64,000 nucleotides of DNA from Chamaesiphon minutus PCC 6605 (GTDB lineage: Bacteria > Cyanobacteriota > Cyanobacteriia > Cyanobacteriales > Chamaesiphonaceae): NCBI RefSeq assembly GCF_000317145.1, contig NC_019697.1:1426001-1490000 (forward strand), written 5' to 3'. Of the stretch, positions 36,529 to 64,000 are shown in pieces (positions within the stretch are counted from its first letter, which is position 1; every line of letters starts with the position of its first letter). The notes beneath the pieces are model-generated. The model saw only the letters and a list, made by a program, of their open reading frames with translations. It had not been told where the DNA came from and ran no database searches. Position numbers and translations under genes: made by a program.

Positions 36529-36534
36529 TCTGTT
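36529..36534. repeat. Target site duplication, left copy (TCTGTT)
   Basis: TCTGTT at 36529-36534 repeats at 37976-37981, flanking the insertion sequence. It is reading-frame sequence of the DFDGD gene. Confidence 0.75.
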
Positions 36535-41265: not shown

Positions 41266-41327
41266 TGTTGTTACCTTAGTTGAGCGGTTGACAATCTAAA
41301 AGGTTAGGAGTAGCTATTCGTTCTAAA

Positions 41328-42461: not shown

Positions 42462-42622
42462 GAGATTTGTTTTTGATTAAAAGGAGTTGAGAATTTTAAT
42501 TGCATGGACTAATAAATAGTGGGGATTTAACTAGTGTTGAATTGACATTGGCGCGGCTCAATATTTTGCATTTTACCCTCATTATTTAGAGAACTTTATT
42601 TATTGCCTTTGACTCTAAGCGA

Positions 42623-43552: not shown

Positions 43553-43572
43553 AGGTTGTGTCTCCTAAAAAG

Positions 43573-44064: not shown

Positions 44065-44137
44065 CTTAGTCTCCTTCTCAAGGGTTTTAGTGGGTGCTGG
44101 GATGCCTATTGCTAGGCATCCCATGTACTATCTCGAC

Positions 44138-44926
44138 CTAGCTTTTAATCACTTGGTTGATCGTCTTGACAACTACTCGTGAGTTAGCTGGGATATCTTC
44201 CACGATCGATGCCCAAGGTGAAATTTCGACGTTATCACCGATGTGAATTGATCCAAAGACTCGGACAAATCCTCCCACTCGGACGTTATCGCCTAATTGA
44301 GGGTGTCTACGTCCGCTGATGTTGTCAGCAATACCTGTCGATCCAAGGATGATACATTGGAGCAAGTAGCATTTATCTCCAATTACAGTCGTCTCACCGA
44401 TCACTGTTCCAACGCCATGATCGATTACCAGTTCTCGCCCGATGGTCGCGCCAGGGTGGATTTCAATTCCTGTCTCAACTTTGGTCGTCTCACTAATCCG
44501 ACGAGCTACTGCTCGCAAGTTTAGATTGCCGATCTTATAGGTGTAGAGCGCATTGGCTATTCGGTAATTCGCAACGGCGCGGAGCGAAAGGTAGGTTTCC
44601 CACACTTCGAGCGGATCGTCACCTGCTGCTGGATCGCGGTGCATTAAGATAGCTAAATCCTCTTCGATACGTCGAACGATTTTCTTGACAGTCCGATCGC
44701 GGATGAGTTCAGCAACTTGTTGAGTCAGCAAGTTATGTTTCAACAACTCGATGACGTATTGACGAATGCGGCGATGGGGTTCTGGGGAATCGAGTCGTAA
44801 AAGAGGGGGTTTTGGAGGTTTGGGCGGTACGGGTGCTGTCGAAGAATGGGATGATCGGTCATTCGCCAAAATTTGGTCGGTTTCACTGATACCGAATTGT
44901 CCTAGCTTTGGTAAGATAGTGGTCAT
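44138..44926 (-). CDS. cysE: Serine acetyltransferase-like hexapeptide enzyme (262 aa)
   Basis: Would make O-acetylserine from serine and acetyl-CoA. The N-terminal helical part (DPLEVWETYLSLRAVANYRI) and the left-handed beta-helix (GIEIHPGATIGRELVIDHGV, GTVIGETTVIGDKCYLLQ) are typical of CysE, with the catalytic His in the DHG loop. The usual TLGGTG-K motif reads ILGSTGIADNISGRRHP, consistent with CysE. ATG 44926 has AAGGAG 7 bp upstream. First gene of the minus-strand block; a 732-bp regulatory gap separates it from the divergent regulator. Confidence 0.88.
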   Translation of the reverse strand: MTTILPKLGQFGISETDQILANDRSSHSSTAPVPPKPPKPPLLRLDSPEPHRRIRQYVIELLKHNLLTQQVAELIRDRTVKKIVRRIEEDLAILMHRDPAAGDDPLEVWETYLSLRAVANYRIANALYTYKIGNLNLRAVARRISETTKVETGIEIHPGATIGRELVIDHGVGTVIGETTVIGDKCYLLQCIILGSTGIADNISGRRHPQLGDNVRVGGFVRVFGSIHIGDNVEISPWASIVEDIPANSRVVVKTINQVIKS

Positions 44927-45018
44927 GATTATCTCCTTAGTGTTTACGAAAGGAACTGGCACGAGATGAGTTGCGACCTCATCTCACGCTAACTAATCAA
45001 AAAATAAAGAAAATAACA

Positions 45019-45055
45019 GCAGCCTTATCCCCCAAAGGGATGGGGCTGTTTTTAA
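45019..45055 (+). terminator. Terminator-like hairpin upstream of cysE
   Basis: CAGCAGCCTTATCCCCC / GGGATGGGGCTG with an imperfect stem followed by TTTTTAATTTT on the plus strand. No plus-strand gene ends here, so it may terminate an antisense or small RNA, or act within the cysE leader. Confidence 0.4.
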
Positions 45056-45146
45056 TTTTACACTATTAATAAAAATTATCGCTGTCAGGTTAAAAGTTAA
45101 TAACTCGAAAAGACAAGCTAGTATATTGATAACAAGACATTTGATC

Positions 45147-45203
45147 GTGCAAGCCTACAATGACTTACCCCGCAGTCTCTAGTGCAAGCCCTCTAATGAG
45201 GGC
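45147..45203. promoter_or_regulatory. Repeats and hairpin in the cysE/regulator gap
   Basis: GTGCAAGCC occurs at 45147-45155 and 45182-45190, and a perfect hairpin GCCCTC-TAAT-GAGGGC lies at 45188-45203. The 44927-45658 gap separates divergent genes; these may be binding sites for the regulator encoded at 45659 or part of an RNA leader. The rest of the gap (45210-45658) is AT rich with no gene seen. Confidence 0.35.
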
Positions 45204-45658
45204 AAATAGAATTAAAAATCGATTATGCTGCTATGAATGTGGTTGTTACTTGCGATACCTCGATACCATAGTCGGGTTACTGGTCTAGAATCACCGATCC
45301 ACATCGCAAAATAATTATCCGATCTATATTTAGCTTTTGTCAATATTTTTCTGTAAATTTACTAATTGCCTTATGCCTGTGTAAACTCGTATAATATTAA
45401 TAGCAACATGTGCAGTACAAATGAATTAGTATAAAATTTCTAGCTCAAATTCTTTATTCTTGGATTTTAATTCATTTGCACTATGAATTGATGTAAAGCT
45501 TGACCTATTAAAGGAACTAAATTCCGTTATTTCCGTTCAACGATCCAAATACAGCCAATATTTTTGAAAAATTAATCTTAAAAGAATAGTTGTATTTTGC
45601 TTATAAAGACATATTCAAATGATAAAATGGCAATAATGTTTAATCTTGTAAACTACAC

Positions 45659-46780
45659 ATGAGCGAAGCAAAAAAACGGGGACGACCAAAACGAGAGCAT
45701 GAATCTCAGCAGCCGGATTTGCCCATTCCCAAGGGGAATCCTACTTTCGTTGAGACGATCGATAAATACCTAGCAGAAGCAAAATGGTCGAAGCGCGAAT
45801 TGATGACTTCGATTGGCTTTGGCGAGACACAATTGTATCGCTGGGGACGAGGCGAATCTGTCCCGCGTAAAGCAACGGTCAATCGGATTGCAATTCGGCT
45901 GGCGATGAGGCTGGACGAAATCTATGGACGACCACCGGAAGATCCTTCTCCAGCAACGGATGCGATCGACGGTTTATTAAATGAGCTTTTAGAGGCCGCA
46001 GGCTTTGCCGCCTCGATCGAAGGCAAAACTGGTGATAGCTGCTGGCACAAAATCGCTAACAATCAATACTGGACGTTGGGGTATACTAGCGTACCAGAGT
46101 GGGCGATTCGTCCGACTCGACCTGGTGGAAAACCGACAGGAAAAGCGATTGTCTATGCGGAAACGATCGGACGATTGCTCGGACTGGAGACTTTTTGGCA
46201 GTACCTCAATTTTGACGAAATGCCGCAAGCTATCCGCCAAAGACAAGTTGATGGAATCGTGCCGCTGATGCTGGTTTTGCCGGGGCGACTGTTCGATTAC
46301 AGCTTCTCCGAGCGATGTAGTGAAGAACCATTTACTTTAAACGCGGTCGCCCACAGTCAATCTGTCGAGGCGATAAAAAATTTAGAAGATTTGAACCCCA
46401 TGCAAGTCGAGTTGTTATTTGTCAACGGAGAGCTTGGTGACTGGGGGGCAAAAGTCTTATCACAGTATGAAAACAGCCAGAGTTTTTCTAATGCTGACGA
46501 GGCGATTAGTTATATGCAGGGGAGCGTCGAGCGACGGGAGCTAACAACTATTCCCATCCTGCTGATCGATAGCATTACGGGGAAATATCTGATTGATCGC
46601 GAAAATGACCGAGGACAGCTAAGGTTATCATCTCTTACCATTAAAAGTATCCAACTAAAAACTTTTAATGCCTTCGCTTTTCATCCAGACGAAACAAGTT
46701 TACTAAATGCGGTAAATCAAGCCCTGCCTCTAATTCCATGTATTGAAACAACAAAGGTATATACTAAAAATGAAAAATAA
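45659..46780 (+). CDS. HTH regulator fused to a solute-binding-like sensor domain (373 aa)
   Basis: Starts with an AT-hook-like KKRGRPKREH, then an XRE-type helix-turn-helix (about 30-95: WSKRELMTSIGFGETQLYRW). From about 105 the sequence follows a type 3 periplasmic binding domain without signal peptide: LEAAGFAASIEGKTGD, YWTLGYTSVPEWAI, ETFWQYLNFDEMPQAIRQRQVDGIVPLML. So it probably senses in the cytoplasm the amino acid that the adjacent ABC importer brings in. Overlaps the next gene by 11 bp and stands divergent from cysE across a 732-bp gap. Confidence 0.75.
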   Translation: MSEAKKRGRPKREHESQQPDLPIPKGNPTFVETIDKYLAEAKWSKRELMTSIGFGETQLYRWGRGESVPRKATVNRIAIRLAMRLDEIYGRPPEDPSPATDAIDGLLNELLEAAGFAASIEGKTGDSCWHKIANNQYWTLGYTSVPEWAIRPTRPGGKPTGKAIVYAETIGRLLGLETFWQYLNFDEMPQAIRQRQVDGIVPLMLVLPGRLFDYSFSERCSEEPFTLNAVAHSQSVEAIKNLEDLNPMQVELLFVNGELGDWGAKVLSQYENSQSFSNADEAISYMQGSVERRELTTIPILLIDSITGKYLIDRENDRGQLRLSSLTIKSIQLKTFNAFAFHPDETSLLNAVNQALPLIPCIETTKVYTKNEK

Positions 46781-47462
46781 TAAGCCAAATCATCTCGTTA
46801 GTATCATATCGGAGATGGAAAAATCGGTTATAAATGAACACGACATACAGCACAAGTTAAATCACTACCTTGTAAAACATAAGCAATTAATACAATTCAG
46901 TGAAATTTTTCATTTTGTGCGCTATGACTTTTGCAGATTGAATTTTATAGTTGGAGCTAGATGTCTTAATGATGAAATTTTGTGGGCGGGTTTAGCCAGA
47001 AATCTTATGGAAGAGTTAGGTGGAAAAAGTGGGATCAGTCACAATCAACTCTATCGCAACTTCCTCAAATCCATTGGAACTAAACCAGAAGCAGAATTAC
47101 AATGTCCTGCCTTCGCGCGAGATTTTAACGATAGCTGGGAAGAATTTGCTAGAAATGCACCGCTGATTGAGGCTTTAGCGGCGATTGCCATTTATGAAAT
47201 ATTTGATGTCCCAGATTATCAGATGCTATTAGAACTGCTAGAACAAGCGAAAGTACCGGAAGAAGGACTAATATTCTTCAGGGTTCATGCTAACGCACAT
47301 CATTTTGCAATGTTTGAAGATACGGTAGCTTGGATACTTACTCAAGAAGGCGGACAAGAAGCATTTGATCGAGCGCAGTACTTTGTATTTGAGACTCAAA
47401 GAAAGATGTGGATTGGCTTAACAGAATGCCTCGAAACAAAACAACTAGTAGCCGCCAATTAA
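46770..47462 (+). CDS. Heme-oxygenase-like diiron oxidase family protein (230 aa)
   Basis: Belongs to the all-helical iron-containing redox family (HDO; relatives include BesC, UndA and SznF domains). Possible iron ligands: E81/E82 and H91 in LMEELGGKSGISH, E143 in IYEIFDVPDY, H173 and H177 in FRVHANAHHFAMFED plus Glu/Asp183-184. HDO enzymes often cleave or oxidise amino acids and fatty acids. Translation probably starts at ATG 46770, inside the regulator gene, so they are coupled. It is followed by an amino acid importer, so an amino acid substrate is likely; the reaction is not known. Confidence 0.7.
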   Translation: MKNNKPNHLVSIISEMEKSVINEHDIQHKLNHYLVKHKQLIQFSEIFHFVRYDFCRLNFIVGARCLNDEILWAGLARNLMEELGGKSGISHNQLYRNFLKSIGTKPEAELQCPAFARDFNDSWEEFARNAPLIEALAAIAIYEIFDVPDYQMLLELLEQAKVPEEGLIFFRVHANAHHFAMFEDTVAWILTQEGGQEAFDRAQYFVFETQRKMWIGLTECLETKQLVAAN

Positions 47463-47484
47463 AATCTAAAACTGGAGAGATCGA

Positions 47485-48357
47485 ATGTTGAAAAAATCAC
47501 TGCTCAGATATGTATTGATAGGGTTGTCCCTATTTAGCGTACTCATCTTTAATTTAGCTGGCTGCACAAATAGTAATGTTACACCGCCCACGGCTACCGC
47601 TAGTGCCTCTGTCATGGATCGGGTGGCAACCGATAGTAAGGTTAAAATTGGCTACTTAGTCTTCCCGCCAGCGATTACTAAAAATCAAACTAGTGGAGAA
47701 CTTGGCGGACATCTGATCGACACCATCAAAGAGATTGCGCGACTCAGTAAATGGACTCCTGAATTTGTCGAAACAGATTGGGCAGGGTTTACTACTGGAT
47801 TAGATTCCGGTCGGTTTGATATCTCCGTCGTCCCTACTTTTGTGACAGTACCCAGAGCATTATCGATATATTTTACTAAGCCCCTATTCTTCGCTGGCAA
47901 CAGTGCGATCGTCCGTGCGGGTGAAACTAAAATTACCACCCTCACCAGCATCGATAAACCCGAAATTAGAGTCGCCGTCACCCAAGGAGAAGCAGGGGAT
48001 GAATACGCCAAGGCGAATTTTAAAAAAGCGAAGATTACCAGCTTTCCAGGGAGCGATCAATCTGCTGCCTTTCAAGCCGTAGTTGCTGGACGCGCTGATA
48101 TTGCCCTGGGCGATGCCTATGCTACCGCCCAGTTTGCTAAAGCTAATGCCGCTAAGGTAAAAGATCTATTTGCCGCTAATCCCTACAACCTCACCCCCGT
48201 ATCCTGGGCAGTGAAGAAGGGTGACGACAAATTACTCAATTTCCTCAATAGCAGCATCGAAGCCCTCGATTATCAAGGTCGTTTGCGCGAATTCGAGCAA
48301 AAAGCAGGTGCTAACTGGCTCCACCCCAAAAAAGTCTTGGAATTCACTAAAGGCTAA
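47485..48357 (+). CDS. Amino acid ABC transporter substrate-binding lipoprotein (290 aa)
   Basis: Type 3 solute-binding protein. Signal peptide with lipobox NLAGC (Cys27), then SKVKIGYLVFPPAI, GHLIDTIKEIARLSKWTPEF, GLDSGRFDISVVPTFVT, PEIRVAVTQGEAGDEYAKAN and GDAYATAQFA, the normal SBP_bac_3 order. GAGAG upstream of the ATG. Followed after 6 bp by the permease gene. Confidence 0.88.
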   Translation: MLKKSLLRYVLIGLSLFSVLIFNLAGCTNSNVTPPTATASASVMDRVATDSKVKIGYLVFPPAITKNQTSGELGGHLIDTIKEIARLSKWTPEFVETDWAGFTTGLDSGRFDISVVPTFVTVPRALSIYFTKPLFFAGNSAIVRAGETKITTLTSIDKPEIRVAVTQGEAGDEYAKANFKKAKITSFPGSDQSAAFQAVVAGRADIALGDAYATAQFAKANAAKVKDLFAANPYNLTPVSWAVKKGDDKLLNFLNSSIEALDYQGRLREFEQKAGANWLHPKKVLEFTKG

Positions 48358-48363
48358 AACCTC

Positions 48364-49038
48364 ATGGGTTGGAATTTTGCGGTCATGTGGAATAGTTTCT
48401 TACCCCTGTGCCTTGCCATGCTCACCACCATTTGGATTAGCATTGGCACGATTGTGCTGGGCACGATTTTAGGGGTGCTGTTGGGGATTCTATCCCTCAC
48501 CTCAAATCAATTTGCCTCCAAACTAGCACAGGCATTTATCGAACTATTCCTCGCCTTACCAGCCCTAGTGATTCTCGTCTGGCTCTACTACAGTTTGCCA
48601 CTGATTTTCCCTGGCTTTATCTTGAGCGGCGATGCCTGCGCTGTGCTTGGGTTGGGATTGAGTTTATCCGCCTTCGTTGCCGACATCATCCGAGGTGGCA
48701 TCAATGCCATCCCCCCAGGGGAAATAGAAGTAGCCTACTGTACCGGAATGTCTCGACTCCAAGCAATCCGCTATATCCTGATTCCCCAAGTCCTCCAGCG
48801 ATCTTGGCTACCGCTGATGGGGCAATATATTACCACCTACAAATTTTCGACCCTGGCATCAGTCATCGCCGTCCCCGAAATCCTGCATACAGCCAATGCA
48901 ATCATCGCTCAAACCTATCGCCCACTAGAGATTTACTCGATCGTCGCCTTCATGTTCGTCATCACAATTATGCCGCTCAACCTGCTCCTCCGCAGACTTC
49001 AGCGCGTGAGCAACCTCGGTGGCATGGAGAAAATTTAG
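48364..49038 (+). CDS. Polar amino acid ABC transporter permease (224 aa)
   Basis: HisM/GlnP-type permease with about five membrane spans (LCLAMLTTIWISIGTIVLGT, FIELFLALPALVILVWLYYS and others) and the cytoplasmic EAA loop EVAYCTGMSRLQAIRYIL-IPQ. Start ATG 48364, six bases after the binding-protein stop; the ATPase gene begins six bases after its stop. Confidence 0.88.
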   Translation: MGWNFAVMWNSFLPLCLAMLTTIWISIGTIVLGTILGVLLGILSLTSNQFASKLAQAFIELFLALPALVILVWLYYSLPLIFPGFILSGDACAVLGLGLSLSAFVADIIRGGINAIPPGEIEVAYCTGMSRLQAIRYILIPQVLQRSWLPLMGQYITTYKFSTLASVIAVPEILHTANAIIAQTYRPLEIYSIVAFMFVITIMPLNLLLRRLQRVSNLGGMEKI

Positions 49039-49043
49039 TCCCT

Positions 49044-49724
49044 ATGGCAGAAGTACTCCTCCGGCTCGAAAACATCCAAAAAAGAATCGCTGGCAATACG
49101 ATTCTCGATAACGTTAGTTTGACACTCGATCGTGGTGAAAGTCTGCTAATTCGCGGTAAAAGCGGCTGCGGCAAAACCACCCTACTCAGATGTATCGCCC
49201 TCCTAGAACCGATCGATCGCGGTCAAATTCTGTTCGATGGCAAGGTAGTATCTGAGAAGGGTATGCTCGATCGCACCAAGCACAAGCCCGAAATCGGCAT
49301 GGTATTCCAGCAACTCTATCTATGGCCGCATCTAACCGTCTTAGATAATGTCTCCCTCCCCCTCCATCTACGCCAAGGCGGACACAAAAAAATAGCTGAT
49401 GGACTCGCGATCGAAAAACTATCCCAACTCGGCGTAATCGGCAAAGAAACCGCCTATCCCCATCAACTCTCAGGCGGACAAAGACAGCGAGTCGCCCTAG
49501 CCAGAGCCTTAGTCCATTCCCCAAGTCTCCTCCTCCTCGATGAAATCACCGCCAACCTAGATCCCGAAACCGCCAGCATCGTCCTCGAACTCGTCGAAAA
49601 AATTATTCTCTCCGGTACCACCGTCATCATGATTTCCCACCTACCCGTCACATCCCCAGTCTGGATGTACGAACTAAACGCCAGCAACTGGACGTTGGAA
49701 AAAAGACAACAGCACAATAGCTGA
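49044..49724 (+). CDS. Amino acid ABC transporter ATPase (226 aa)
   Basis: Complete ABC ATPase: Walker A GKSGCGKTTLLR (38-49), Q-loop MVFQQLYLWPHL, signature LSGGQRQRVALARAL, Walker B LLLLDEITANLD, switch His ISHLP. ATG 49044 is used although the frame is open upstream through the permease gene. The final residues (WTLEKRQQHNS) are non-standard. A decayed copy of the last 510 bp is at 52166-52681. Confidence 0.9.
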   Translation: MAEVLLRLENIQKRIAGNTILDNVSLTLDRGESLLIRGKSGCGKTTLLRCIALLEPIDRGQILFDGKVVSEKGMLDRTKHKPEIGMVFQQLYLWPHLTVLDNVSLPLHLRQGGHKKIADGLAIEKLSQLGVIGKETAYPHQLSGGQRQRVALARALVHSPSLLLLDEITANLDPETASIVLELVEKIILSGTTVIMISHLPVTSPVWMYELNASNWTLEKRQQHNS

Positions 49725-53015: not shown

Positions 53016-53288
53016 TCAACCCATCATCAATCTGATATCTTTGAGCAACTTATACATAGTCAGTGGCGATGCTGGAAATGGCTCGAACCCAAAATGACCA
53101 TAAAACTTGCCCGCACTCTCATCTTTAGCATGAACCAGAATCGCCCTAATTCCAGCAATGTCAGCGGCATCTACGGTTCGACGCAAAGCATCCAACAATA
53201 AACCCTGTCCTAGCTTTTGCCCTTGAAAACGATTATCTACAGCCAACCGCGCCAAGATCATCACAGGAATCGGGTAACGTGCCAACCG
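53016..53288 (-). pseudogene. TacT-like GNAT toxin, C-terminal part (split by IS607)
   Basis: LARYPIPVMILARLAVDNRF and QGQKLGQGLLLDALRRT give the acetyl-CoA-binding R/Q-x-x-G-x-G/A loop; the end FYGHFGFEPFPASPLTMYKL is typical of TacT toxins that acetylate aminoacyl-tRNA. Its N-terminal part lies at 55243-55487; the IS607 element separates them. Joining across the element restores SKGLARY. Confidence 0.85.
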
Positions 53289-53480
53289 CTTGATAGAACC
53301 TATACAAATCTAGACAAGCTAGATTGATGTCTACTTCCTACTTCAACGGGGGCATCGGAGCGGCTATCCCTCTGTAGGCTTCCAGGCGCAAGCTGCACCC
53401 AGTATAGTGTTTAGGCTACTATAAGCGGCGCATCGAACGGGAGGTTCCCTCCCGTTTGTGTGCGACAAGACAGAGCTTGA
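53289..53480 (-). ncRNA. Possible TnpB guide (omega) RNA
   Basis: TnpB elements usually make a guide RNA from the end of tnpB through the right end of the element. Here that is the stretch 3' of the TnpB stop (53289-53410, with hairpin-prone sequence near 53330-53400) plus the end of the gene. Predicted by position only. Confidence 0.3.
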
Positions 53481-54571
53481 TGTTCTAGATTGCGTGCAGC
53501 ATTCAGATCGCGGTCGATAGTGATATTGCATTGCTGACAGTTAAAAACACGTTCTTTGAGCAGCATGTCTTGGATATGCCCACAACAAGAACAAGTTTTA
53601 GAACTTGGAAAAAAGCGACCTACAGTAATCAATTCACTACCATATAGCTCACATTTATAAGTTAATTGGCGACGAAATTCATACATACCTAAATCTGCAA
53701 TTGACTTAGCCAAACAATGATTGGATAACATTCCCGATACATTCAAATCTTCAATTACTACTTGGCTGTGGTTCTTAGCCAAGTGAGTAGTTAATTTGTT
53801 AAGTGTATCTTTACGAATGTTGGCAGTTTTTGCATGTTGTTTGGCTACTTTTAAATTCGCCTTTTGTCGATTGTTTGAGCCTTTAACCTTGCGGCTAGCT
53901 GCTTTTTGAAGCCTAGCTAATCTGGATTGAGATTGACGGTAAGGTTGAGGGTTGGGGAACGTTGCACCTGTGCTTAAAGTAGCTAGTGTTTTAATCCCTA
54001 AGTCTACACCACAAACACCAACTAGTTTAGCTGTAGTGTTTGGTTCGACTTCATAGCTAAAAGAGACAAACCAACGGTCAGCGGTTCGACTAATTATTGC
54101 TGTTTTAGGCGTCAATCCTTGCGGCAATCGTTCGTAAGTCTTTACTACTCCTATTTTTGGTAATTGAAGCCAACGATGTTCAACTTTAATAGTCCCTTCC
54201 AAGGTAAAGCTATCATGCTGACCTTTGCGCTTGAATCTGGGAAAGCCCACCCGCCGACCATTCGCAGTTTTCTTTCTAAAGAAATCAGAAAATGCACTCG
54301 CTAAGTATCTCAGCGCATATTGAGGGCTAGTTTTGGATACTTCGTAATACCAAGGGTTTTCAACCTTCACCCACTTGACTAGGAATTTATGCAGATCGAT
54401 CGCTGATGGAAATCTTAGTTTCTCTGTTGGATTTTCTCGATTGTAGTCGAGAATTTTTTTACACAGATCTAAGCCCCAGTTCCAAGCATGACGAGCTACA
54501 CCCGCATGTCTAGCCAGTTGAGTTCTTTGATAGTTATTCAGTTTTAGTTCGGTTTTAAAACTGATTCTCAT
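53411..54571 (-). CDS. tnpB: TnpB RNA-guided nuclease (386 aa)
   Basis: Ancestor-type Cas12 relative. N-terminal FKTELKLNNYQRTQLARHAG; RuvC acids D190 (GVDLGIKTLATL), E274 (VVIEDLNVSG) and D353/355 (IDRDLNAARN); a four-Cys zinc finger (TCSCCGHIQ, FNCQQCNI). All active residues are present, so it may cleave DNA. Overlaps tnpA by 4 bp (ATGA). Confidence 0.93.
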   Translation of the reverse strand: MRISFKTELKLNNYQRTQLARHAGVARHAWNWGLDLCKKILDYNRENPTEKLRFPSAIDLHKFLVKWVKVENPWYYEVSKTSPQYALRYLASAFSDFFRKKTANGRRVGFPRFKRKGQHDSFTLEGTIKVEHRWLQLPKIGVVKTYERLPQGLTPKTAIISRTADRWFVSFSYEVEPNTTAKLVGVCGVDLGIKTLATLSTGATFPNPQPYRQSQSRLARLQKAASRKVKGSNNRQKANLKVAKQHAKTANIRKDTLNKLTTHLAKNHSQVVIEDLNVSGMLSNHCLAKSIADLGMYEFRRQLTYKCELYGSELITVGRFFPSSKTCSCCGHIQDMLLKERVFNCQQCNITIDRDLNAARNLEHQALSCRTQTGGNLPFDAPLIVA

Positions 54572-55170
54572 AACTGTTTTGCTACCTCCTTTAACTCTTC
54601 TACTATTTTCTTATTCTTATGAGAACGACTACCGTATAAACGAGCAGAAAATACAGTGATGATTTCGAGTACGTCTGATGCTAAATCTTCCTCAAATGTA
54701 CTATCATCAGAGCGATTGATAATTATCACCTCTGTTCCAAATTGTTCGCATAATGTGAAAATTAGATCTGACCCAAATCTAAGTAATCTATCTTTATGAG
54801 TTAGAACTAGTCGTTCAACTTGATAAGATGTAATTAACTTGATTAGCCTAATTAGTCCTTTCTTTTTATAGTTCATTCCACTGCCAAGATCTTGAATTAC
54901 TTCAAACCCCCAGCCATGTTTAGCACAATAACTTTCTAAAACTATAACTTGCCTAGTTAGATCTTCTTTCTGGTCGTGACTAGAAACTCTGGCATAGCCT
55001 ACTGTTAATTGAGTATCCGATTTATTGCTAATTAAATCTGCTATGTCATACCGACGATGACCGCCAGCAGTGCGAGTGGACTTGATTTTTCCATCAAGTT
55101 CCCATCTGTGTAGGGTTCTAACCGTTACACCGAGTAAGGTGGCTGCTTCCTGTGGCGTTAAACTAGACAT
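54568..55170 (-). CDS. tnpA: IS607 serine transposase (200 aa)
   Basis: MerR-type helix-turn-helix (TPQEAATLLGVTVRTLHRWE, GGHRRYDIADL) followed by a small serine recombinase domain: VGYARVSSHDQKEDL with the nucleophile serine near 63-64. It would move the element through a circular intermediate. Starts just inside the element's right end. Confidence 0.93.
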   Translation of the reverse strand: MSSLTPQEAATLLGVTVRTLHRWELDGKIKSTRTAGGHRRYDIADLISNKSDTQLTVGYARVSSHDQKEDLTRQVIVLESYCAKHGWGFEVIQDLGSGMNYKKKGLIRLIKLITSYQVERLVLTHKDRLLRFGSDLIFTLCEQFGTEVIIINRSDDSTFEEDLASDVLEIITVFSARLYGSRSHKNKKIVEELKEVAKQL

Positions 55171-55242
55171 AAAATCATTATAACAGATAATTTGTCTAGT
55201 TATGTATAGTTTGATCTAGGTATTTAGGTGCAGTTCAAAAAC

Positions 55243-55487
55243 CCTTTGCTCATTCCTTCAGGTGACTCAGAATGCGTGACTTCTCCCACCGTGAGGGTGT
55301 AATAACCAACCACCCGTTCGCCAATTAATGCCAGCCAAGTTTGGGCACTATCTTTCTTTTGATTTTGGGATGCGTATCGGTGTAAAAACTGATTTAGTGC
55401 CTCTACCCCACAATCGAATTCGGCGATCGGTTGCCTAGATGTAAGTTTTTCGATCCTTGGCTGAGAATCGTCTGCGGCTAGGGACAT
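55243..55487 (-). pseudogene. TacT-like GNAT toxin, N-terminal part (split by IS607)
   Basis: MSLAADDSQPRIEKLTSRQP, IAEFDCGVEALNQFLHRYAS and DSAQTWLALIGERVVGYYTL are the standard opening of TacT GNAT toxins. After SKG the frame enters IS607 and stops. Overlaps the antitoxin end by 10 bp, as usual in tacAT operons. The toxin is broken, the antitoxin is intact. Confidence 0.85.
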
Positions 55488-55759
55488 CGATCGAACACAC
55501 TGGGCGTATTTAGCAGTTGTTGCAGACGGGGATGAGTACGAGGCGGAGCATCAAGAGCTGCCTGGAAAGCATCCCATTCTTTATCGTTGAGACTAAATTG
55601 TCTTCGTTCGGCTAGGGTACTTTCTGCTTCTGTCAGAGCAGTCTCCAGTACGAACTCACTGAGGGTTTGATGACGAGATTGTGCCGCAGCTTGCAACAAC
55701 CTCTTCGCAGTTGGGGAAAGACGAATATCTAGCCTTTCTGTCCGTAAATTAGAAGACAT
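55478..55759 (-). CDS. TacA-like DUF1778 antitoxin (93 aa)
   Basis: Ribbon-helix-helix antitoxin: RTERLDIRLSPTAKRLLQAA for DNA binding and DKEWDAFQAALDAPP for toxin neutralisation, the typical TacA/DUF1778 pattern. It is now partnerless because the toxin gene is split. Confidence 0.88.
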   Translation of the reverse strand: MSSNLRTERLDIRLSPTAKRLLQAAAQSRHQTLSEFVLETALTEAESTLAERRQFSLNDKEWDAFQAALDAPPRTHPRLQQLLNTPSVFDRCP

Positions 55760-57354: not shown

Positions 57355-57954
57355 TCACCCAGATACAGAATAATGAAAAAAAGGTTGAATTTGACCGATC
57401 GTGGATAAAAGCTCGGCAACTTTAGCATTGGTAGATCGATCGGCACGAGGATAAATCAGACAACTGCGTACCTGTCGATCGTACCCAGTATAATTGAGTT
57501 TTTGAAGATCGATATCGGATAGACTGACTAGTATATTTTTTTGACCGAGCGTTTTTAGTGTCAGAGAATCGACCCTGCTAAAAATCGTCTTCCATATATC
57601 TGCTGTGTAAGCTTGACTCAGAAAAAAACTATATTTTAAGTGCCGATATTTATTAGTAAATCCTGCTACTAAGGAAACAATCTCTTGTAACTCCCGATGA
57701 CATGGGGGTAGAATTTGCCACCAGTGAGCGCGAGTATCGATACTCAGAGGTAAACGTTCTAGATACATATTAAATTTTACGGGATCGCACTCAGACACGA
57801 TCGCATGAGCTTGACGATCGCACATCAACTCATCTAATTGCCAGTCAGGGAGCTGATGAAACACATGCTGTTGATATGAGGCTCCATAACACGTCAGCAG
57901 AGTTTGCAAGGCGCGATCGACCAATTCTCCCCCCGACGAAACATAATTAATCAA
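57355..57954 (-). CDS. Hypothetical protein, last gene of the 57-64 kb operon (199 aa)
   Basis: Unrecognised soluble-looking protein: ELVDRALQTLLTCYGASYQQ, DWQLDELMCDRQAHAIVSE, TLKTLGQKNILVSLSDIDLQ. Overlaps the ParA-like gene by 4 bp (ATGA), so translation is coupled. The 250-bp gap after it (57105-57354) holds no gene that I can support. Confidence 0.6.
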   Translation of the reverse strand: MINYVSSGGELVDRALQTLLTCYGASYQQHVFHQLPDWQLDELMCDRQAHAIVSECDPVKFNMYLERLPLSIDTRAHWWQILPPCHRELQEIVSLVAGFTNKYRHLKYSFFLSQAYTADIWKTIFSRVDSLTLKTLGQKNILVSLSDIDLQKLNYTGYDRQVRSCLIYPRADRSTNAKVAELLSTIGQIQPFFHYSVSG

Positions 57955-58841
57955 GGCAAATAACCCGTATTCCTAAAAGATTGCCAATTATCCTCCAACC
58001 ATTTATCTATTTTCAGTTTCACGATCGGATTGAGTTGTTTCCCGTTATACCCGTTCTTGACTATTTCATGTAACGGCGTACCGAGATCTACCGCTTCAAG
58101 AATTGCCGGATCTGCGAGCCAAGGTAGAATATTTGCGATCTTAACTTTTCCATCTTGAGAGAGTTTGTCCAGTGCTGGCAGCGGATCGAATCTATCCCAG
58201 TTAGGAACTGCGCTAGTTATGCCTAAGTTGAACACGCAGACATGATGCAGGTTGGGATATCTGGTAACAAAATCTACGAACATCTGTTGTGATGTACCAC
58301 TCCCAAAGCTACACCACCAATTTATAACTTTAAAAGGTGGCGATTCGCTTGCCATTAGTAAATTTATATTATTACTTTCTAGCCAAATATCGATTCCATC
58401 GTTTGCTGGAAGTGAAACAATTAGATCCAGCTTGACACTGTAGATAATATCTAATAAGCGATCGCCTAAATAGCTAAACTTAGCATCTTTAGAGAAGATA
58501 ATTTGTTCGCTAAGTAGGATCGATCCTACTTTCGGGTCAGTATCTACTTTATCGGCTAACGATCGACCAAATCGACTGCCGATCGAACCAACTGAAGACT
58601 TAACCTCCTTATGCTGCCAAAGAGACACAGTTTCTCGATCGTAAGCACGAGCTACATTATAATTAGGATCGGCATCAATTAAGGTAAATAACCGACCGAG
58701 TTTAATAAATCTCTCGCAAAACAGCCGCGCTAGAGTAGATTTACCAGATCCGCCTAAAAATCCATTGCAAAGATGTAATGTGGGAGTAAAATTATCATTA
58801 TTTGTTTGTTCTAAATTCTCTTGCTGTTTATTGTTTGCCAT
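57951..58841 (-). CDS. ParA/MinD-like P-loop ATPase (296 aa)
   Basis: P-loop NTPase: LHLCNGFLGGSGKSTLARLF (Walker A at 28-36) with TLIDADPNYNVARAYD as switch/Walker B. The first lysine of the ParA deviant Walker A is Leu, so it may not dimerise in the ParA way. LDLIVSLPANDGIDIWL is a further strand. ATG 58841 is preferred over the longer frame, lying one base after the stop of the upstream gene. It may position the nearby membrane or AAA components. Confidence 0.75.
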   Translation of the reverse strand: MANNKQQENLEQTNNDNFTPTLHLCNGFLGGSGKSTLARLFCERFIKLGRLFTLIDADPNYNVARAYDRETVSLWQHKEVKSSVGSIGSRFGRSLADKVDTDPKVGSILLSEQIIFSKDAKFSYLGDRLLDIIYSVKLDLIVSLPANDGIDIWLESNNINLLMASESPPFKVINWWCSFGSGTSQQMFVDFVTRYPNLHHVCVFNLGITSAVPNWDRFDPLPALDKLSQDGKVKIANILPWLADPAILEAVDLGTPLHEIVKNGYNGKQLNPIVKLKIDKWLEDNWQSFRNTGYLP

Positions 58842-58842
58842 A

Positions 58843-59490
58843 TTAACGGATCTCCAGCATACAAACAGTTTTACCAGTCTTTTTGATTCCTTTACGAATA
58901 CACGCTTCCACCGATTTATTGCCAGACAAAAACGCACGACGCAGGATTTTCCCATCAGACGTACTCAACCATTCCAGCATCGCTCCATCAGAACCTCTGG
59001 CTAATCTTAATTGTTGAGGAAATATGACAAAATATGCCAGCAATGATGTAGCAATCATCCCGATTGAGAATCCACCCAGACTCCAACATAAACTCCTGAG
59101 TCTAGTGTTAATATTCCTGCCGCTACGATCGATTGCTTGTTTGGTTAAATCTCGATAAACTTCGCGATCTCGATCGAGTTTTGCAAGTAGTTCTTCTTGT
59201 CGAGTATCACTCTCTGAAGATTCGGTCTGGCGTTGCTGCCGCTCCTCTTCGAGTAACGATTGAATTGCTTGAGGCACAGCAGAAGTAACCACATGCAGAT
59301 ACTCGCTAATTTTCTCGATTTGGGCGATCGTCCCAGTTATATGATAGATCTCATCATCGGTAGATAGTTCGCGGCTGTTAACGAGTTTGTCGATGTTAGC
59401 TAATGCTTCTTTTCGATCGATCGCATCCAGATAGGAGGTAAGTGGGGACTTATCAGAACTGTCACCATTATTATTTTTAACTGTAACCAT
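58843..59490 (-). CDS. Single-membrane-span coiled-coil protein (215 aa)
   Basis: Residues 55-120 predict a charged coiled coil (SLLEEERQQRQTESSESDTR, QEELLAKLDRDREVYRDLTK), then one strong membrane span at about 137-157 (SLGGFSIGMIATSLLAYFVIF) and a basic C-terminus that ends with MLEIR. It lies between the AAA ATPase (25 bp) and ParA-like genes (1 bp), so probably a membrane anchor for them. No family recognised. Confidence 0.65.
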   Translation of the reverse strand: MVTVKNNNGDSSDKSPLTSYLDAIDRKEALANIDKLVNSRELSTDDEIYHITGTIAQIEKISEYLHVVTSAVPQAIQSLLEEERQQRQTESSESDTRQEELLAKLDRDREVYRDLTKQAIDRSGRNINTRLRSLCWSLGGFSIGMIATSLLAYFVIFPQQLRLARGSDGAMLEWLSTSDGKILRRAFLSGNKSVEACIRKGIKKTGKTVCMLEIR

Positions 59491-59515
59491 TTTACGTCAA
59501 GTATTATCTAGTTTA

Positions 59516-60967
59516 TTAATTCGATGAGACTACCTTTGCAGGTCGGTAAGGATCGATATTCCGAGGTGCCAGAATACTCTGTTTTTTTGAATGAGAGGGC
59601 TTGGCTAATTCACGAATCGAGTTTCTAATCGTAACAATTTGCTTAGAGTTACGCTCGAACATACAATTAAATTGCATTGCTTCCTCAAGTAAATCTCCTG
59701 CTGTGACTTCGCCCTTAGGATCGCACTCTTTAACTCTGGCAATTGTATCGATAACAATTTGTTCGATTTCTGCGCCGACATACTCGATCGTTTCATCGAG
59801 AATACCTTGCCACTCATATTTATCAAAAACTAGATCGTCTGTGAATCTAGAATCGAATCGTTTGAGAAATAGTAAGAATAAATTCAACCTCGATTCGGCA
59901 TCGGGAGAATCGACTTCCCAAACACAATCAAATCTCCCAGCACGAGTAGCTTCTACGGGTAAGTCTTCAATCCGATTGAGAGTACCGATGACGAAAACTG
60001 GGAAGGTTTTATCTTGAAGCCAAGTTAGCAGCAAAGATAAAAGGGGTTTATCATCCCTGGTAAATAGTTTCTCGATCTCATCCATATAGAAGATACAAGG
60101 AGCGCAGACTTTAGCTATTTCTAAAACCCTTGCCATTGCCGTCAAACCACCGACTTTGATTTTGTCGATCTCTAGCGATAACATAGGGTAGCCCAGGGCA
60201 GAGGCGATCGATCGTGCAGAATACGTCTTACCCGTTCCTGGTATCCCGACCAACAGCCAACCTTTCGGGTAAGGTAGTCCGAGATCGATCGCCTGTTGAC
60301 TGAATCTAAACTTGAGCTTATCGATCGCCAGTACCAATTCATCCAAACCCGCAATTTCTTTAAAAGCTGGTGGGGGATCGTACTTAACCCCCATCAGCGA
60401 TAGACGGGCGTTGCGATAGGTTTCTAAATATAGTTCCGGCTCTGGACTCTCACCCGATTGTTGCAGTGCGAGCTTCAAATCTTGATAAGCCAGCCCCGAT
60501 GCCAGTCGGAGATTGCGATCGGTCGGCTCGAAGTGGTATTCGCCAAATAACTCGGTAATTTCCGCAGCACTCGGAAGCTTCCAGGTGTACTCATAGACAA
60601 ATCGTGCCAATTCGATCGGTAACGGCGTATCGTCCGTTTGCAATAGCACCAGCCGATAGCGAGACTGGCACAGGGAATAAAGATCGGCGAAATGCTCGTA
60701 GATTAATTGCCGCTCCCACGGCGCGAGCGTAGCGACGAAGGTTAAGTAATTATCGAAGACGAAATAGCCCTCACTACTGGCATTACAGATGGCATCGAGT
60801 AGCAGCCTAAAGGGTGAAGCGATGGCATTGTTGCCAACCAAAGCATTCAATCGCCACCGCTGGCAGTCGTTCAAATGAGTGCTGACGATCCATTCTCGAT
60901 CGAGTGGATTACAGCGCACCAAGATTATCTGGTGCTGGGTCATTAATTGGTTCAGATCTTGTGACAT
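59516..60967 (-). CDS. Ycf46-like AAA ATPase (483 aa)
   Basis: AAA ATPase with a plant/cyanobacterial Ycf46-style N-terminal domain (1-200) and one AAA module: Walker A LLVGIPGTGKTYSAR near 240, Walker B CIFYMDEIEKLF near 293, sensor 1 VIGTLNRIEDLP, Arg finger ATRAGRFDCVWEVD. It would remodel protein complexes. Shares one base with the preceding gene's end, in a tight operon. Confidence 0.85.
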   Translation of the reverse strand: MSQDLNQLMTQHQIILVRCNPLDREWIVSTHLNDCQRWRLNALVGNNAIASPFRLLLDAICNASSEGYFVFDNYLTFVATLAPWERQLIYEHFADLYSLCQSRYRLVLLQTDDTPLPIELARFVYEYTWKLPSAAEITELFGEYHFEPTDRNLRLASGLAYQDLKLALQQSGESPEPELYLETYRNARLSLMGVKYDPPPAFKEIAGLDELVLAIDKLKFRFSQQAIDLGLPYPKGWLLVGIPGTGKTYSARSIASALGYPMLSLEIDKIKVGGLTAMARVLEIAKVCAPCIFYMDEIEKLFTRDDKPLLSLLLTWLQDKTFPVFVIGTLNRIEDLPVEATRAGRFDCVWEVDSPDAESRLNLFLLFLKRFDSRFTDDLVFDKYEWQGILDETIEYVGAEIEQIVIDTIARVKECDPKGEVTAGDLLEEAMQFNCMFERNSKQIVTIRNSIRELAKPSHSKKQSILAPRNIDPYRPAKVVSSN

Positions 60968-62655
60968 TATCGGCTTTGGGATACTTCGGGTTCTGGACGC
61001 GATCGTTCGGGAGTGCCACCGCTAGTCGGCACTTGCACGGCTTCTTTCTCACCACGAGTCGGAACGTTAACGCCTAGAGAGTTAGCAGGAGTGGAAGCTA
61101 ACTCAGGCGAATCGTTACCGATATTTGGATTAGAGTTGGACGTGCTAACATCTGGAGCGTTACCAGCGGTGGCTAATTCAGATGTGTTATTTCTGTTCTT
61201 CGGCTTGGGTTTGGGCGTATTAACACCTAGAGCGTTACCAGCAGTTGCTAATTCAGGTGAGTTGCCAATAGTCGGCGTGGGATTGGGCGCGTTTTCCTGA
61301 GTGAGTGGGAGGTATTGAGGATCTTGAGATTCGCCAAAGGCGACGCTTCGCGAACGAGCAGCTAATTCGAGTTGTTGGGCTGCTTTAACCGATCGAGGGT
61401 CGATGCCTCGTGCCGCCAGGACGCGATCGAGTGCTTTAGTCACATCCGGATCGTTAAATTTGGAATCTGGCTTAAAGTTTCCATCTCGATCGAGTTCGCC
61501 AATTTGAACGGGTTTATTACCTTCACTTGGGGTAACGAAGATAGAGCGCGTTCCTTTTGTGGTTTGACGATTAAGCTTGAATGTTGTCCCCTCAATATTT
61601 ATGCTTTTGTAGCTTTTTGGTTTGACTCGATCGAATTCCGACTTTAGAACTCGATCGTAAACGACACTAGATGCTTGCTTGGGATCTACATCAGTTGTAA
61701 GTTCTGCGAGATCGAGAGTTTTCCCGATCGGGGATTGGGGTGAGACTTTACTAACTTCTTGAGGTGGTTCTGGTACTAATTCAGATTTGGGATCGGTTTT
61801 GGAAACTTTAGCCTCAACATCTGGAGTTGCCGCCATCCGTTTAGCATAATTCGTAAGGTCGGTCAGACCCTTTTCATCCTTGAGTTTGATACTGCTCAAA
61901 AGTTCGGGATCGCGATCGTAAGCACTGTAAATGACCACGCCTTGCGCGTCGGTTTCAAACAGCTTCTTGCCCCCATATTCAATTAGTAGATTCTCACCAC
62001 CTTTAATAGTCGTGCCCTCTTTGCCATTCATCAAATCGAGGATAGCTTGAGCATCTTTTTGGGAGAGGGTCTTTTCAATGAAATTGTTATTTGAGTCGTA
62101 GCCGTATAAAACCTCAGTTCGATTATTTATCTGCTTCGGTCGTTCTAAATCCAATTCGCGATCCACCCGTGCAACGATCTCTGGTAGATCTTTAATTAGT
62201 TTTGATTCATCTCCTTGAAATCTAATCTTCCCCGACTTTGCGTACAGTTTAGAATCTTGAGATTGAATACTTATCGCACCGCCTCGATATTTCTCGAAAT
62301 TATATTTAGTTCCATTTACATCTAGATCGCGCTGGAAGTATTTCCGATCTGGCAGGAGGCTATTTAACCGCTCGATCGATTGTTCTGCCTGTTGCTTAGG
62401 ACTGAGATCGGGATTATTAGCATCTTTTCGGGTAACTTTAAATCCAGAATCCATAGTTGCTTCGGGTGAATTTGTCCGAGATACTTTAACCGATTCGACA
62501 TCAGGTGCTTCGCGAGTTACTTGAAGCGATTTAGATTTGTTCTGCTCCCGATTAGATAGTTTGACTAATGCTGCCATCATATTAGCGAGTGCTTTAGAGC
62601 CTACTTCGTTGAGCTGCTGAGATAATCGTTCTGACTGGCTATGAATTTCCTGCAT
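60967..62655 (-). CDS. Large plasmid protein with tandem C-terminal repeats (about 562 aa)
   Basis: Unrecognised. N-terminal helix MQEIHSQSERLSQQLNEVGS, long charged middle with two FKVTRK/KYNFEKYRGG-like beta strands, and a C-terminal tract with three loose copies of SPELATAGNALGVNTPKPKP-type units (about 480-550 in the longer numbering), Pro/Asn/Ser rich and probably unfolded. ATG 62655 is preferred; a TTG at 62712 would overlap the upstream gene by 44 bp. Confidence 0.65.
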   Translation of the reverse strand: MQEIHSQSERLSQQLNEVGSKALANMMAALVKLSNREQNKSKSLQVTREAPDVESVKVSRTNSPEATMDSGFKVTRKDANNPDLSPKQQAEQSIERLNSLLPDRKYFQRDLDVNGTKYNFEKYRGGAISIQSQDSKLYAKSGKIRFQGDESKLIKDLPEIVARVDRELDLERPKQINNRTEVLYGYDSNNNFIEKTLSQKDAQAILDLMNGKEGTTIKGGENLLIEYGGKKLFETDAQGVVIYSAYDRDPELLSSIKLKDEKGLTDLTNYAKRMAATPDVEAKVSKTDPKSELVPEPPQEVSKVSPQSPIGKTLDLAELTTDVDPKQASSVVYDRVLKSEFDRVKPKSYKSINIEGTTFKLNRQTTKGTRSIFVTPSEGNKPVQIGELDRDGNFKPDSKFNDPDVTKALDRVLAARGIDPRSVKAAQQLELAARSRSVAFGESQDPQYLPLTQENAPNPTPTIGNSPELATAGNALGVNTPKPKPKNRNNTSELATAGNAPDVSTSNSNPNIGNDSPELASTPANSLGVNVPTRGEKEAVQVPTSGGTPERSRPEPEVSQSR

Positions 62656-62668
62656 ATATGTTCGCGAT

Positions 62669-63475
62669 CTAGAAAGGAGCGCAATGGGTGATATTTTGCC
62701 TGTTATATTCAACTAAACGAGAGATATCTCCAGTTTTAAAAGATTTCGATCGAAGGTCGATCATTAAATCTGTGGGGATATAGTACTTTTTATCATCTTC
62801 AATGTCGAAGTCAATCCTGAATCCTGCTACCTCTAAAGACCGTTCGATATCGCTACCAAAAATATAAAGAATATCGTCACCAGTTGTCAGATCTCGTTCG
62901 ATAAAAGTATTGCAAATATCTACGCTACTATTCCAATCGACAATATGCTGGATTCCTGACGGAGACAAATCGACAAGTTCATCTTTAACAAAATGTGGTG
63001 GGATAAAATATAGCTTTTCTGGATCGAATGGTAGACATAAATATTCAGCTAAAGGGTAGTCATAAAAGTAAGAATATCCAGCTCGTTCGATAATATCGAT
63101 CGCGTATTGTCCCTTGACATATAAAGGTTGCCCAGCATACTCGCCATCATGCACGATCTCTTGCCCATCGCTATCGCACAGCCAGCCAAAAAACACCTCA
63201 CATCGCTCGTTAAACTCACTAAGTTCGTTCGTATCCTCAATTTGTTTGACATGACTATGATAAATTGCCATACCGATCGGACATTCTATTAAAGTGCGAT
63301 TGGCAACTAAATCGTGGAAATAGATCGGTCGATCGTTTAAATGAATCGAAAGATATGTTTGTGACAATAGCGGATCGCGATCGACATAAAAAGTACTACC
63401 ACAATCGAGGGCAAATAGACATTGCTTGTCGGTTCTAACGTAAATTCGATCGTATGTGGATGGAGAAGTTAGCAT
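62669..63475 (-). CDS. Hypothetical protein with a C-terminal GSDI domain (268 aa)
   Basis: Unrecognised. The C-terminal 70 residues (YIFGSDIERSLEVAGFRIDF, DIEDDKKYYIPTDLMIDLRS) closely parallel the protein at 63542-64000 (VVGSDIINCFQASGFDITEY, EIEAHKKYLIPADLMVKDEL), so the two are paralogous. N-terminal part: DCGSTFYVDRDPLLSQTYLS and a beta-rich core. No catalytic motif visible. Confidence 0.65.
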   Translation of the reverse strand: MLTSPSTYDRIYVRTDKQCLFALDCGSTFYVDRDPLLSQTYLSIHLNDRPIYFHDLVANRTLIECPIGMAIYHSHVKQIEDTNELSEFNERCEVFFGWLCDSDGQEIVHDGEYAGQPLYVKGQYAIDIIERAGYSYFYDYPLAEYLCLPFDPEKLYFIPPHFVKDELVDLSPSGIQHIVDWNSSVDICNTFIERDLTTGDDILYIFGSDIERSLEVAGFRIDFDIEDDKKYYIPTDLMIDLRSKSFKTGDISRLVEYNRQNITHCAPF

Positions 63476-63541
63476 AAATTTAAGGTGAGTAAAAATATGA
63501 CAGCCGTAAGCCTAATCCCCGCCAACAGCTAAAGATAGTAT

Positions 63542-64000
63542 CTAGAAATTCGCGCCCGTAGCGGCGGGGATAGGCGGCGGCGGTTGTTCGTGTGACGATA
63601 CGTTGTAATTTAAGAGTCTACCGAGATCGGCATAAGTTAGTGGTTTGAGTTCGTCCTTAACCATTAAATCTGCGGGAATCAGGTATTTTTTATGAGCTTC
63701 AATTTCATACTCAGTTATGTCGAAACCAGAAGCTTGAAAACAATTGATGATATCGCTACCAACAACATGTAATGGATCGAAGTTAGACATTGAATCTTCT
63801 GTTACTGCTTCGGCACTTAATGGTAATAGCCGCTCTAGAATTTGCGTGTATCGTAATAATTCCTGACTGAAATCGATCTGTGAAGCGCGATCGCGTTCGT
63901 TAATTATAAATTCTCTAATTGCGTTATGATCTGCAAGCGATCGCTCCTTAAATGCTTTACTCTGCTCTGAATCGTAACTAAACTGATGAAGAAATGGGAT
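63542..64000 (-). CDS. Paralogue with a GSDI domain, 5' end cut by the window edge
   Basis: The frame is open from the right edge to the stop at 63542 (153 codons), reading SYDSEQSKAFKERSLADHNA, REFIINERDRASQIDFSQEL, then the GSDI domain and a proline-rich tail (EQPPPPIPAATGANF). An ATG at 63790 exists but has no ribosome site, so the start is probably beyond the window. First visible gene of the minus-strand operon that runs to 57355. Confidence 0.6.
   Translation of the reverse strand: MPFLHQFSYDSEQSKAFKERSLADHNAIREFIINERDRASQIDFSQELLRYTQILERLLPLSAEAVTEDSMSNFDPLHVVGSDIINCFQASGFDITEYEIEAHKKYLIPADLMVKDELKPLTYADLGRLLNYNVSSHEQPPPPIPAATGANF

Follow-up and report, generated by a model that had tools for sequence, protein, structure and literature searches.

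A VirD4-linked AAA+ ATPase branch, a protein with a relaxase-like C-terminus and a lysine-less ParA-like ATPase in the distal part of a Chamaesiphon minutus conjugation operon

Layout of the operon and of the element

The window analysed here is a stretch of 64,000 nucleotides from the cyanobacterium Chamaesiphon minutus PCC 6605 (G000:C1:1426001-1490000), whose genome, G000, has 6,761,765 bases on three contigs, among them C1 (6,284,095 bases) and C3 (446,651 bases). The last seven genes of the window encode the end of a VirD4/TraG coupling ATPase, a GSDI protein, a repeat-tailed protein (RPT), an AAA+ ATPase, a coiled-coil protein, a ParA/MinD-like ATPase and p199, the partner of the latter (Table 1). 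They are almost certainly the distal end of a conjugation operon, encoding a type IV secretion system (T4SS), in an integrative and conjugative element (ICE). An earlier note, made from the window alone, had described seven minus-strand genes with small overlaps and gaps; all of these open reading frames (ORFs) are present, and with the likely starts the spacings, taken from p199 towards VirD4, are -4, -2, +25, -1, +13 and +66 bp. Purifying selection acts on all six complete genes: their ratios of nonsynonymous to synonymous substitution rates (dN/dS) are 0.06-0.32 against the copies on C3 and in genome G002.

Table 1. Features of the operon tail, followed by those of the rest of the element, in window positions (aa, amino acids).
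Feature	Position	Strand	Remarks
p199, partner gene of the ParA-like ATPase	57355-57954	-	window ORF
ParA/MinD-like ATPase, signature lysine replaced by leucine	57951-58955	-	likely start 58844 (MANNK...)
Coiled-coil protein	58843-59490	-	one hydrophobic segment (from aa 138); conserved C-terminal segment
AAA+ ATPase	59516-60967	-	Walker A aa 241-248, DE aa 296-297; N-terminal domain resembling a degenerate AAA domain
RPT	60967-62712	-	581 aa, or 562 aa from a possible later start, 62655; proposed T4SS substrate or signal bearer
RPT C-terminal tail	60967-61070	-	tandem VPTxG motif in common with the relaxase tail
GSDI protein	62669-63475	-	268 aa; C-terminal aa 201-261 match the VirD4 tail
VirD4/TraG coupling ATPase, C-terminal end	63542-64000	-	671 aa; gene runs on to G000:C1:1491557
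GSD-type tail of VirD4	63542-63787	-	aa 591-671
Tyrosine integrase next to tRNA-Val	69-1097	+	PF00589 1.1e-15; in-frame ATG upstream of the window
TrwC-type (MOBF) relaxase	16000-17262	-	420 aa; PF08751 9e-89; VPTxG near C-terminus
ParM-like actin homologue beside the relaxase	18132-19277	+	PF17989 below cut-off
Homologue of the 1438-aa C3 gene, in two pieces	33032-38594	-	80% and 84% identity; transposase between, 36552-37793

The full VirD4 protein matches PF12696 (1.5e-23), PF10412 (3.1e-22) and PF02534 (2.7e-21), all over the cut-off. Upstream of it on the same strand lie, in order, p165, a transposase gene, p491, p168 and VirB10-, VirB8-, VirB6-, VirB4-, VirB3- and VirB2-like genes. The VirB3-like protein matches PF05101 over the cut-off (2e-5), and the VirB4-like ORF of 1034 aa matches TraC (6.4e-13) and VirB4_CagE (8e-12), both below the curated or equivalog cut-offs. 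The VirB10-, VirB8- and VirB6-like proteins of the window element have no Pfam match to those families; they and the VirB2-like protein were assigned by iterated profiles and gene order, which link them to loci of the same order with annotated TrbI/VirB10 (TrbI PF03743 at 1e-9 in the matched L014 protein). A VirB11 gene in or near the operon was considered and rejected, as PF00437 is not matched there: four genes of G000 match this family over the cut-off, none of them near the operons, and five conjugation plasmids have no match over the cut-off. Not every type of T4SS has a VirB11.

These upstream genes change the reading of the tail. The earlier note's single assembly attached to the membrane was broadly right, the assembly being a conjugative T4SS, but it is not free-standing, and the operon continues past the window edge; the rest of VirD4, the VirB genes and the attachment (att) sites lie outside the window and were not visible to the earlier note. 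Pfam searches at E up to 1 gave no match for three of the six complete proteins, and the coiled-coil protein has Pfam matches below the cut-off only, which would suit a novel membrane assembly unrelated to conjugation; with VirD4 and VirB-like genes in the same operon, a free-standing complex was rejected and can practically be dismissed.

A module is common to the final 81 aa of VirD4 and to the GSDI protein of 268 aa, in its C-terminal part (independent E 4e-29). The two had been taken for paralogous GSDI proteins; their kinship is thus borne out, but one of these 'proteins' is the tail of VirD4. The tail is absent from VirD4 of two related loci, C1b and C1c, and the GSDI protein has no match to the protein of about 105 aa found at the same place in other genera. 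A docking role for this tail and the GSDI protein would be a guess. A fold prediction of the GSDI protein alone had a mean predicted local distance difference test score (pLDDT) of 34.6 and was not used. The one-span coiled-coil protein stands as described: its single hydrophobic segment was computed (mean Kyte-Doolittle value 1.86), and the coiled coil was assigned by eye. None of the other five complete operon proteins has a segment with a mean above 1.6. The Pfam, PADLOC and PHROGs searches gave no protease match among the operon proteins; those of PADLOC and PHROGs found matches to the AAA core (best 8.9e-49, phrog_8638, of unknown function) and one weak match to p199.

A tRNA-Val(GAC) gene lies immediately left of the window, and a 46-bp repeat, consisting of the last 45 bases of this gene and the next base, has a perfect second copy at C1:1520863-1520908, 95,098 bp apart, where no tRNA was found. 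The element is an ICE, since the att repeats, the tyrosine integrase, the TrwC relaxase, the ParM homologue and the operon are all contained within these 95,098 bp, which also enclose the whole window.

Related loci and the arrangement of modules

Four further AAA loci of G000 (C3a, C1b, C1c and C3b) each have a VirD4 gene; they were found via the AAA protein and are no proof that every T4SS locus of G000 carries one. The order of the seven genes recurs in C3a, with one extra gene for a 342-aa GSD-type protein, in L060 and, as far as the contig reaches, in L061. A scan of genome contigs gave 80 loci, of which the top four were used, the rest resembling generic AAA proteins; the named loci closest to the window AAA protein are cyanobacterial. 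The extra protein of C3a (L010 10508-11536, between RPT and AAA) has no Pfam match; by eye, GSD/GSE-type units occur in it twice, and its C-terminal segment is hydrophobic. In the C3 copy, VirB4 reads as a pair of neighbouring ORFs of 950 and 325 aa (G000:C3:423062-426902).

The earlier note had named the occurrence of the genes apart from each other as grounds for refuting its reading, and the outcome is divided. In C1b and C1c, VirD4, RPT, AAA and the coiled-coil protein stay together, but the ParA-like gene and p199 are clustered elsewhere, next to ParM and a MOBP relaxase. Because this pair is found apart from the rest, the set is two modules brought together, one linked to VirD4 (VirD4-RPT-AAA-coiled coil) and the other consisting of the ParA-like ATPase and p199. 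The latter two genes also adjoin in L062 (E 3e-4) and L066, as they do in C1b and C1c. C3b is a rearranged locus, and in L063 of genome G009 an AAA protein, a 502-aa protein, a coiled-coil protein, ParA-like and ParM-like proteins and a MOBF relaxase are encoded within 10 kb. The simplest reading is that a VirD4-linked module and a relaxase-ParM-ParA module existed, and that the ParA-like gene and p199 of the latter were drawn into the operon in the MOBF lineage, leaving ParM by the relaxase.

The AAA+ ATPase

A profile built from ten AAA sequences has matches in 291 of 291 genomes of the class, with four or five candidates scored per genome, over approximately positions 13-475 of its 504, that is, over both domains. 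The AAA protein is a member of a universal family, in which it belongs to a separate branch linked to conjugation. The earlier designation as Ycf46-like, which we follow as the name of the family, agrees with this two-domain match. In a tree of 47 sequences, whose groups were set beforehand, one branch (support 100/99) splits 35 rows, 26 of them linked to VirD4 at 25 kb or less, from 12 unlinked rows, which were the best-scoring ones, some of them on short contigs (G117 C158, 3.2 kb), and are presumably chromosomal. The tree was built without L061 (226 aa) and second copies such as G252 C42, G293 C323, G300 C324, G204 C38, G195 C89 and G117 C66, and the program warned of long branches.

The link with VirD4 extends to other genomes. 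Twelve of the 25 AAA places there scoring above 285 bits lie within 25 kb of VirD4: three are at most 3.4 kb behind it, and the other nine precede it by 6.6-22.6 kb on the same strand. Of the lower-scoring places listed, at least two (G109 and G296) are near VirD4, and both fall in the conjugation branch. The AAA gene is found two genes behind VirD4 in Rivularia, Tolypothrix, Scytonema, Fischerella, Allocoleopsis and Gloeothece.

In one kind of fold search, the predicted structure of the AAA protein (mean pLDDT 60.6) could be superposed on the D1-D2 pair of p97 across 397 residues (Z 20.1) at a root-mean-square deviation (rmsd) of 11.3, and its residues 191-362 align with FtsH at Z 19.9 and rmsd 2.3; VIA alignments over both AAA domains have rmsd values of about 8-12 Å, and the confidence of the model is middling. 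No Walker A motif was seen in the first domain. The model suggests two AAA domains, of which the first is probably degenerate and the second intact, the D1-like nature of the first being tentative. That a p97-like AAA protein works at the VirD4 gate is a possibility that we put forward tentatively.

C-termini of RPT and the relaxases

In two loci of G000, RPT and the relaxase end alike. The C-terminal domain of RPT matches the C-terminus of the MOBP relaxase at 60% identity over 96 aa (E 9e-34) in C1b and at 59% over 96 aa (E 2e-32) in C1c, both E values coming from a small subject set. The two genes are some 10-14 kb apart, and we infer from this nearness that they belong to one element in each case. 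A search of 60 relatives with the relaxase tail gave eight matches in three genomes (G000, G002 and G006); in G006, a single 10-kb contig encodes a relaxase and an RPT that both bear the tail (RPT against the C1b relaxase, 59% over 122 aa). This domain of about 100 aa has no match in Pfam or NCBIfam, in which the body of RPT likewise has no recognised domain.

The tail domain was not found in the lineage of the window, where RPT and the MOBF relaxase have instead, 12-20 aa from their ends, a V-x-V/L-P-T-x-G motif in tandem. Searched in six frames of 317 kb of the organism's own DNA and 2.4 Mb of other loci, the tandem motif occurs only in RPT (window, C3a and G002) and in two MOBF relaxases (window and C3), a result whose weight is lowered by the pattern having been defined after the motif was noticed and by the partial overlap of the loci. 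C3a and its relaxase lie at opposite ends of contig C3, so that their nearness presumes a circle. The repeat tail of the earlier note is weakly supported: neither TRF nor a repeat search detects a DNA repeat, and the degenerate protein repeats, of the SPELATAGNA and VPTxG types, are seen by eye.

Basic tails occur on some T4SS substrates. A terminal arginine is found in 11 of 18 RPT proteins and positional equivalents and in 55 of 789 other ORFs; this is suggestive, the count having been made after the feature was seen and on related rows. A comparison of RPT with the 450-540-aa protein encoded at the corresponding position of other genera (hhalign probability 40, E 3e-4, 67 columns) is not claimed as a relationship.

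From these C-termini, RPT may, at roughly even odds, be a T4SS substrate or a signal bearer, and we infer that it could be exported into the recipient. If each of two unrelated signals does follow the relaxase that goes with it, RPT would offer a natural reporter for the secretion signal. The common C-terminus might also be a binding site for a third protein (the AAA protein, ParM or an oriT protein), and RPT would then act in the donor, as part of the relaxosome or as a competitor, and would not be exported. Shared domains can be adaptors, and a body with no recognised domain fits such a role. Nevertheless, we consider a shared binding site rather unlikely, since both tails lie at or near the extreme C-terminus, a frequent site of T4SS signals, and since there are two unrelated kinds of tail, each of which recurs on the relaxase of its own locus or element.

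The ParA-like ATPase

A profile of 12 ParA-like sequences has matches to ArsA, MinD and ParA-like structures in the region of the P-loop, with a best E of 3e-7; the single window protein matches CbiA below the cut-off, and a search of the plasmid collection with it gave nothing at E 1e-5. The changed first lysine reported in the earlier note was confirmed, the motif reading LGGSGKS in place of KGGxGKS/T. Leucine occupies the position in the window, C3a, L060, L061 and C3b, and tyrosine in L063. The signature lysine is retained in 16 of 18 ParM-linked proteins and in none of the six that are linked to the operon, that is, co-operonic with AAA or the coiled-coil protein (those just listed, four of the six being of one lineage); the count was made without G232 and L064, where no ParM was seen, and without the short weak matches C1c 1856614, C3a 413593, C3c 272686, G334, L066 1431 and L067 16711. 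Sorted by relaxase type, the lysine is lost in three of three MOBF loci (window, C3a and L063) and kept in eight of eight MOBP and six of six MobV loci.

A similar split of the KGG motif, kept with MOBP and lost with MOBF, is reported for StbB-like proteins, where some MOBP6 plasmids also lack it (PMC3098194). According to the same paper, StbB is needed for conjugation of R388, and plasmid foci are missing from the polar membrane without it; for plasmid R1, partition proteins are stated to help transfer as well (PMC4949242). By analogy, it is plausible, at roughly even odds, that the ParA-like ATPase positions the DNA of the element.

Proposed mechanism and alternatives

Taken as a whole, the best explanation is that the distal set delivers and feeds substrates to the coupling protein VirD4, to which we assign a probability of about 0.6. 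The ParA-like ATPase, derived from the relaxase-ParM-ParA module and moved into the operon, would bring the DNA of the element to the membrane, as StbB of R388 or VirC1 does. VirD4 would take in the substrates, and the GSD tail added to it would pair with the 268-aa protein, which bears GSD too, for docking. The p97-like AAA protein, anchored to the membrane via the coiled-coil protein, might spend ATP on unfolding substrates or handing them over at VirD4, a task close to the one that VirB11 has elsewhere. RPT, equipped with the C-terminal signal of the relaxase, may itself be sent into the recipient, or may display the signal and so regulate VirD4. The most specific form of this scheme, in which a branch of cyanobacterial conjugation machines recruited a p97-like unfoldase to the VirD4 gate and sends RPT using the C-terminal signal of its own relaxase, is doubtful as a complete account.

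Several observations weigh against this explanation. The window relaxase has a truncated second VPT repeat and lacks the helicase half, which the 919-aa homologue on C3 possesses; because of the missing half and of the homologue of the 1438-aa gene split around a transposase, the window copy of the element may be impaired in transfer. No common tail was found between the relaxase and the protein in the RPT position in seven MobV loci or in the MOBF loci L151 and L063 (best BLAST E 0.06). The lysine is missing from two ParM-linked proteins (the first copy of L069, and G296), and L063, operon-linked and lysine-less, has ParM nearby. Thirteen of the 25 AAA places above 285 bits have no VirD4 within 25 kb, several of them on short contigs. 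Finally, plasmid3 of NIES-25 (L151, Nostoc, 89.6 kb) has VirB4 to VirD4 and a MOBF relaxase, and neither the AAA protein nor a VirB11 over the cut-off; the AAA protein is therefore no general substitute for VirB11.

The last case also speaks for the extra genes being cargo or maintenance functions, for instance a stability or defence pair of AAA and coiled-coil proteins, that take no part in transfer. The AAA protein weakly matches IetA defence ATPases (8e-14, the best stretch lying within the ATPase core), and SGI1 is reported to be stabilised by a serine protease paired with an AAA antitoxin of the SpoVK/Ycf46/Vps4 kind (PMC10954446); on an IncA plasmid, the gene of a related ATPase has no annotated transfer genes next to it. 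We nonetheless regard a cargo role as unlikely, because the AAA gene stands behind VirD4 in several genera and plasmids, the conjugation-linked branch is distinct, RPT and relaxases share tails, and the operon has no protease match.

The shortened relaxase and the split homologue, together with the transposase gene between p491 and p165, would also be expected if the element were degenerate and non-functional, with the operon persisting as a relic. Such decay does not sit well with the perfect att repeats, with operon ORFs that are open and have the low dN/dS values given above (0.06-0.32), or with a C3 copy that keeps the 919-aa relaxase, and we hold it to be improbable, if not greatly so. 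Delivery of substrates to VirD4 stays our preferred explanation.

Other features of the element

To the right of the right att copy, an ORF (L246 1495-3000, G000:C1:1520994 onward) includes a 30-aa stretch with 50% identity to the N-terminus of the integrase of the element (E 6e-6) and continues, by eye, into helicase-like sequence; it is probably left over from another element inserted at this site. In the window, two ORFs for group II intron-type reverse transcriptases (RVT_1, GIIM, RVT_N) lie at 23924-26711. The region 40528-49724 carries cargo, with genes for an alanyl-tRNA-synthetase-like editing protein, a PLP-dependent enzyme, a JAB-domain protein and a hexapeptide transferase and, by eye, amino-acid ABC transporter-like genes; it may be a small amino-acid or biosynthetic cluster. 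Window positions 53016-55759 seem to hold a toxin-antitoxin pair with a transposon inserted in the toxin gene: an 87-aa ORF (55224-55487) shows 93% identity, over 83 aa, with the N-terminus of a 171-aa protein of L060, its continuation seemingly lies beyond a resolvase-TnpB (IS607-like) pair (53411-55170), and a TacA-type antitoxin gene (55478-55759, PF08681 8.6e-26) adjoins it.

Significance and comparison with known systems

Conjugation in cyanobacteria has been little studied, despite the plasmids and integrated elements with transfer genes that they carry. A bounded element, a transfer operon and several related copies are now defined, which makes three ideas testable: a p97-like ATPase serving a T4SS, a secretion signal in the form of two tails, and the loss of the lysine in ParA-like conjugation ATPases. 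What is new is the conjugation-linked AAA branch, the C-termini common to RPT and relaxases, and the lysine-less state of the ParA-like ATPase where it has joined the operon, a state in which it resembles StbB of R388.

The earlier note knew of no described system with this make-up. The system as such is of a known kind, cyanobacterial conjugation having been reported (PMC3158045, PMC8600333); no description of the AAA/RPT/coiled-coil/ParA tail was found in the searched open-access literature, as far as its available text goes. The conjugation systems of the MPFC class, such as that of pCC7120alpha of Nostoc PCC 7120, resemble the present one in VirB4, VirD4, the order of VirB-like genes, the host and the location on plasmids or ICEs. 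In their available text, the papers on them name the relaxase, VirB4 and VirD4 and do not mention the AAA/RPT/coiled-coil/ParA tail.

The single components also have counterparts. StbB of R388, TraL of RP4, MobD and VirC1 are likewise ParA/MinD-type ATPases tied to conjugation; unlike stb, the ParA-like gene of the window stands at the end of the VirD4 operon rather than in a three-gene operon, and its related modules carry ParM. The BID domain of Bartonella effectors and alphaproteobacterial relaxases is similarly a C-terminal domain of about 100 aa common to relaxases and other proteins of a system, among them toxins that are exported (PMC6509941). In contrast to BID, the tail domain here lacks Pfam and NCBIfam matches, is replaced by a short tandem motif in the MOBF elements, and is a putative export signal. 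VirB11 is a ring ATPase working with VirD4, but it belongs to a different family from the AAA protein. The latter shares the two-domain profile match with the Ycf46-type AAA proteins and the fold match with the D1-D2 pair of p97/Cdc48, and it differs from both in forming a separate branch tied to VirD4.

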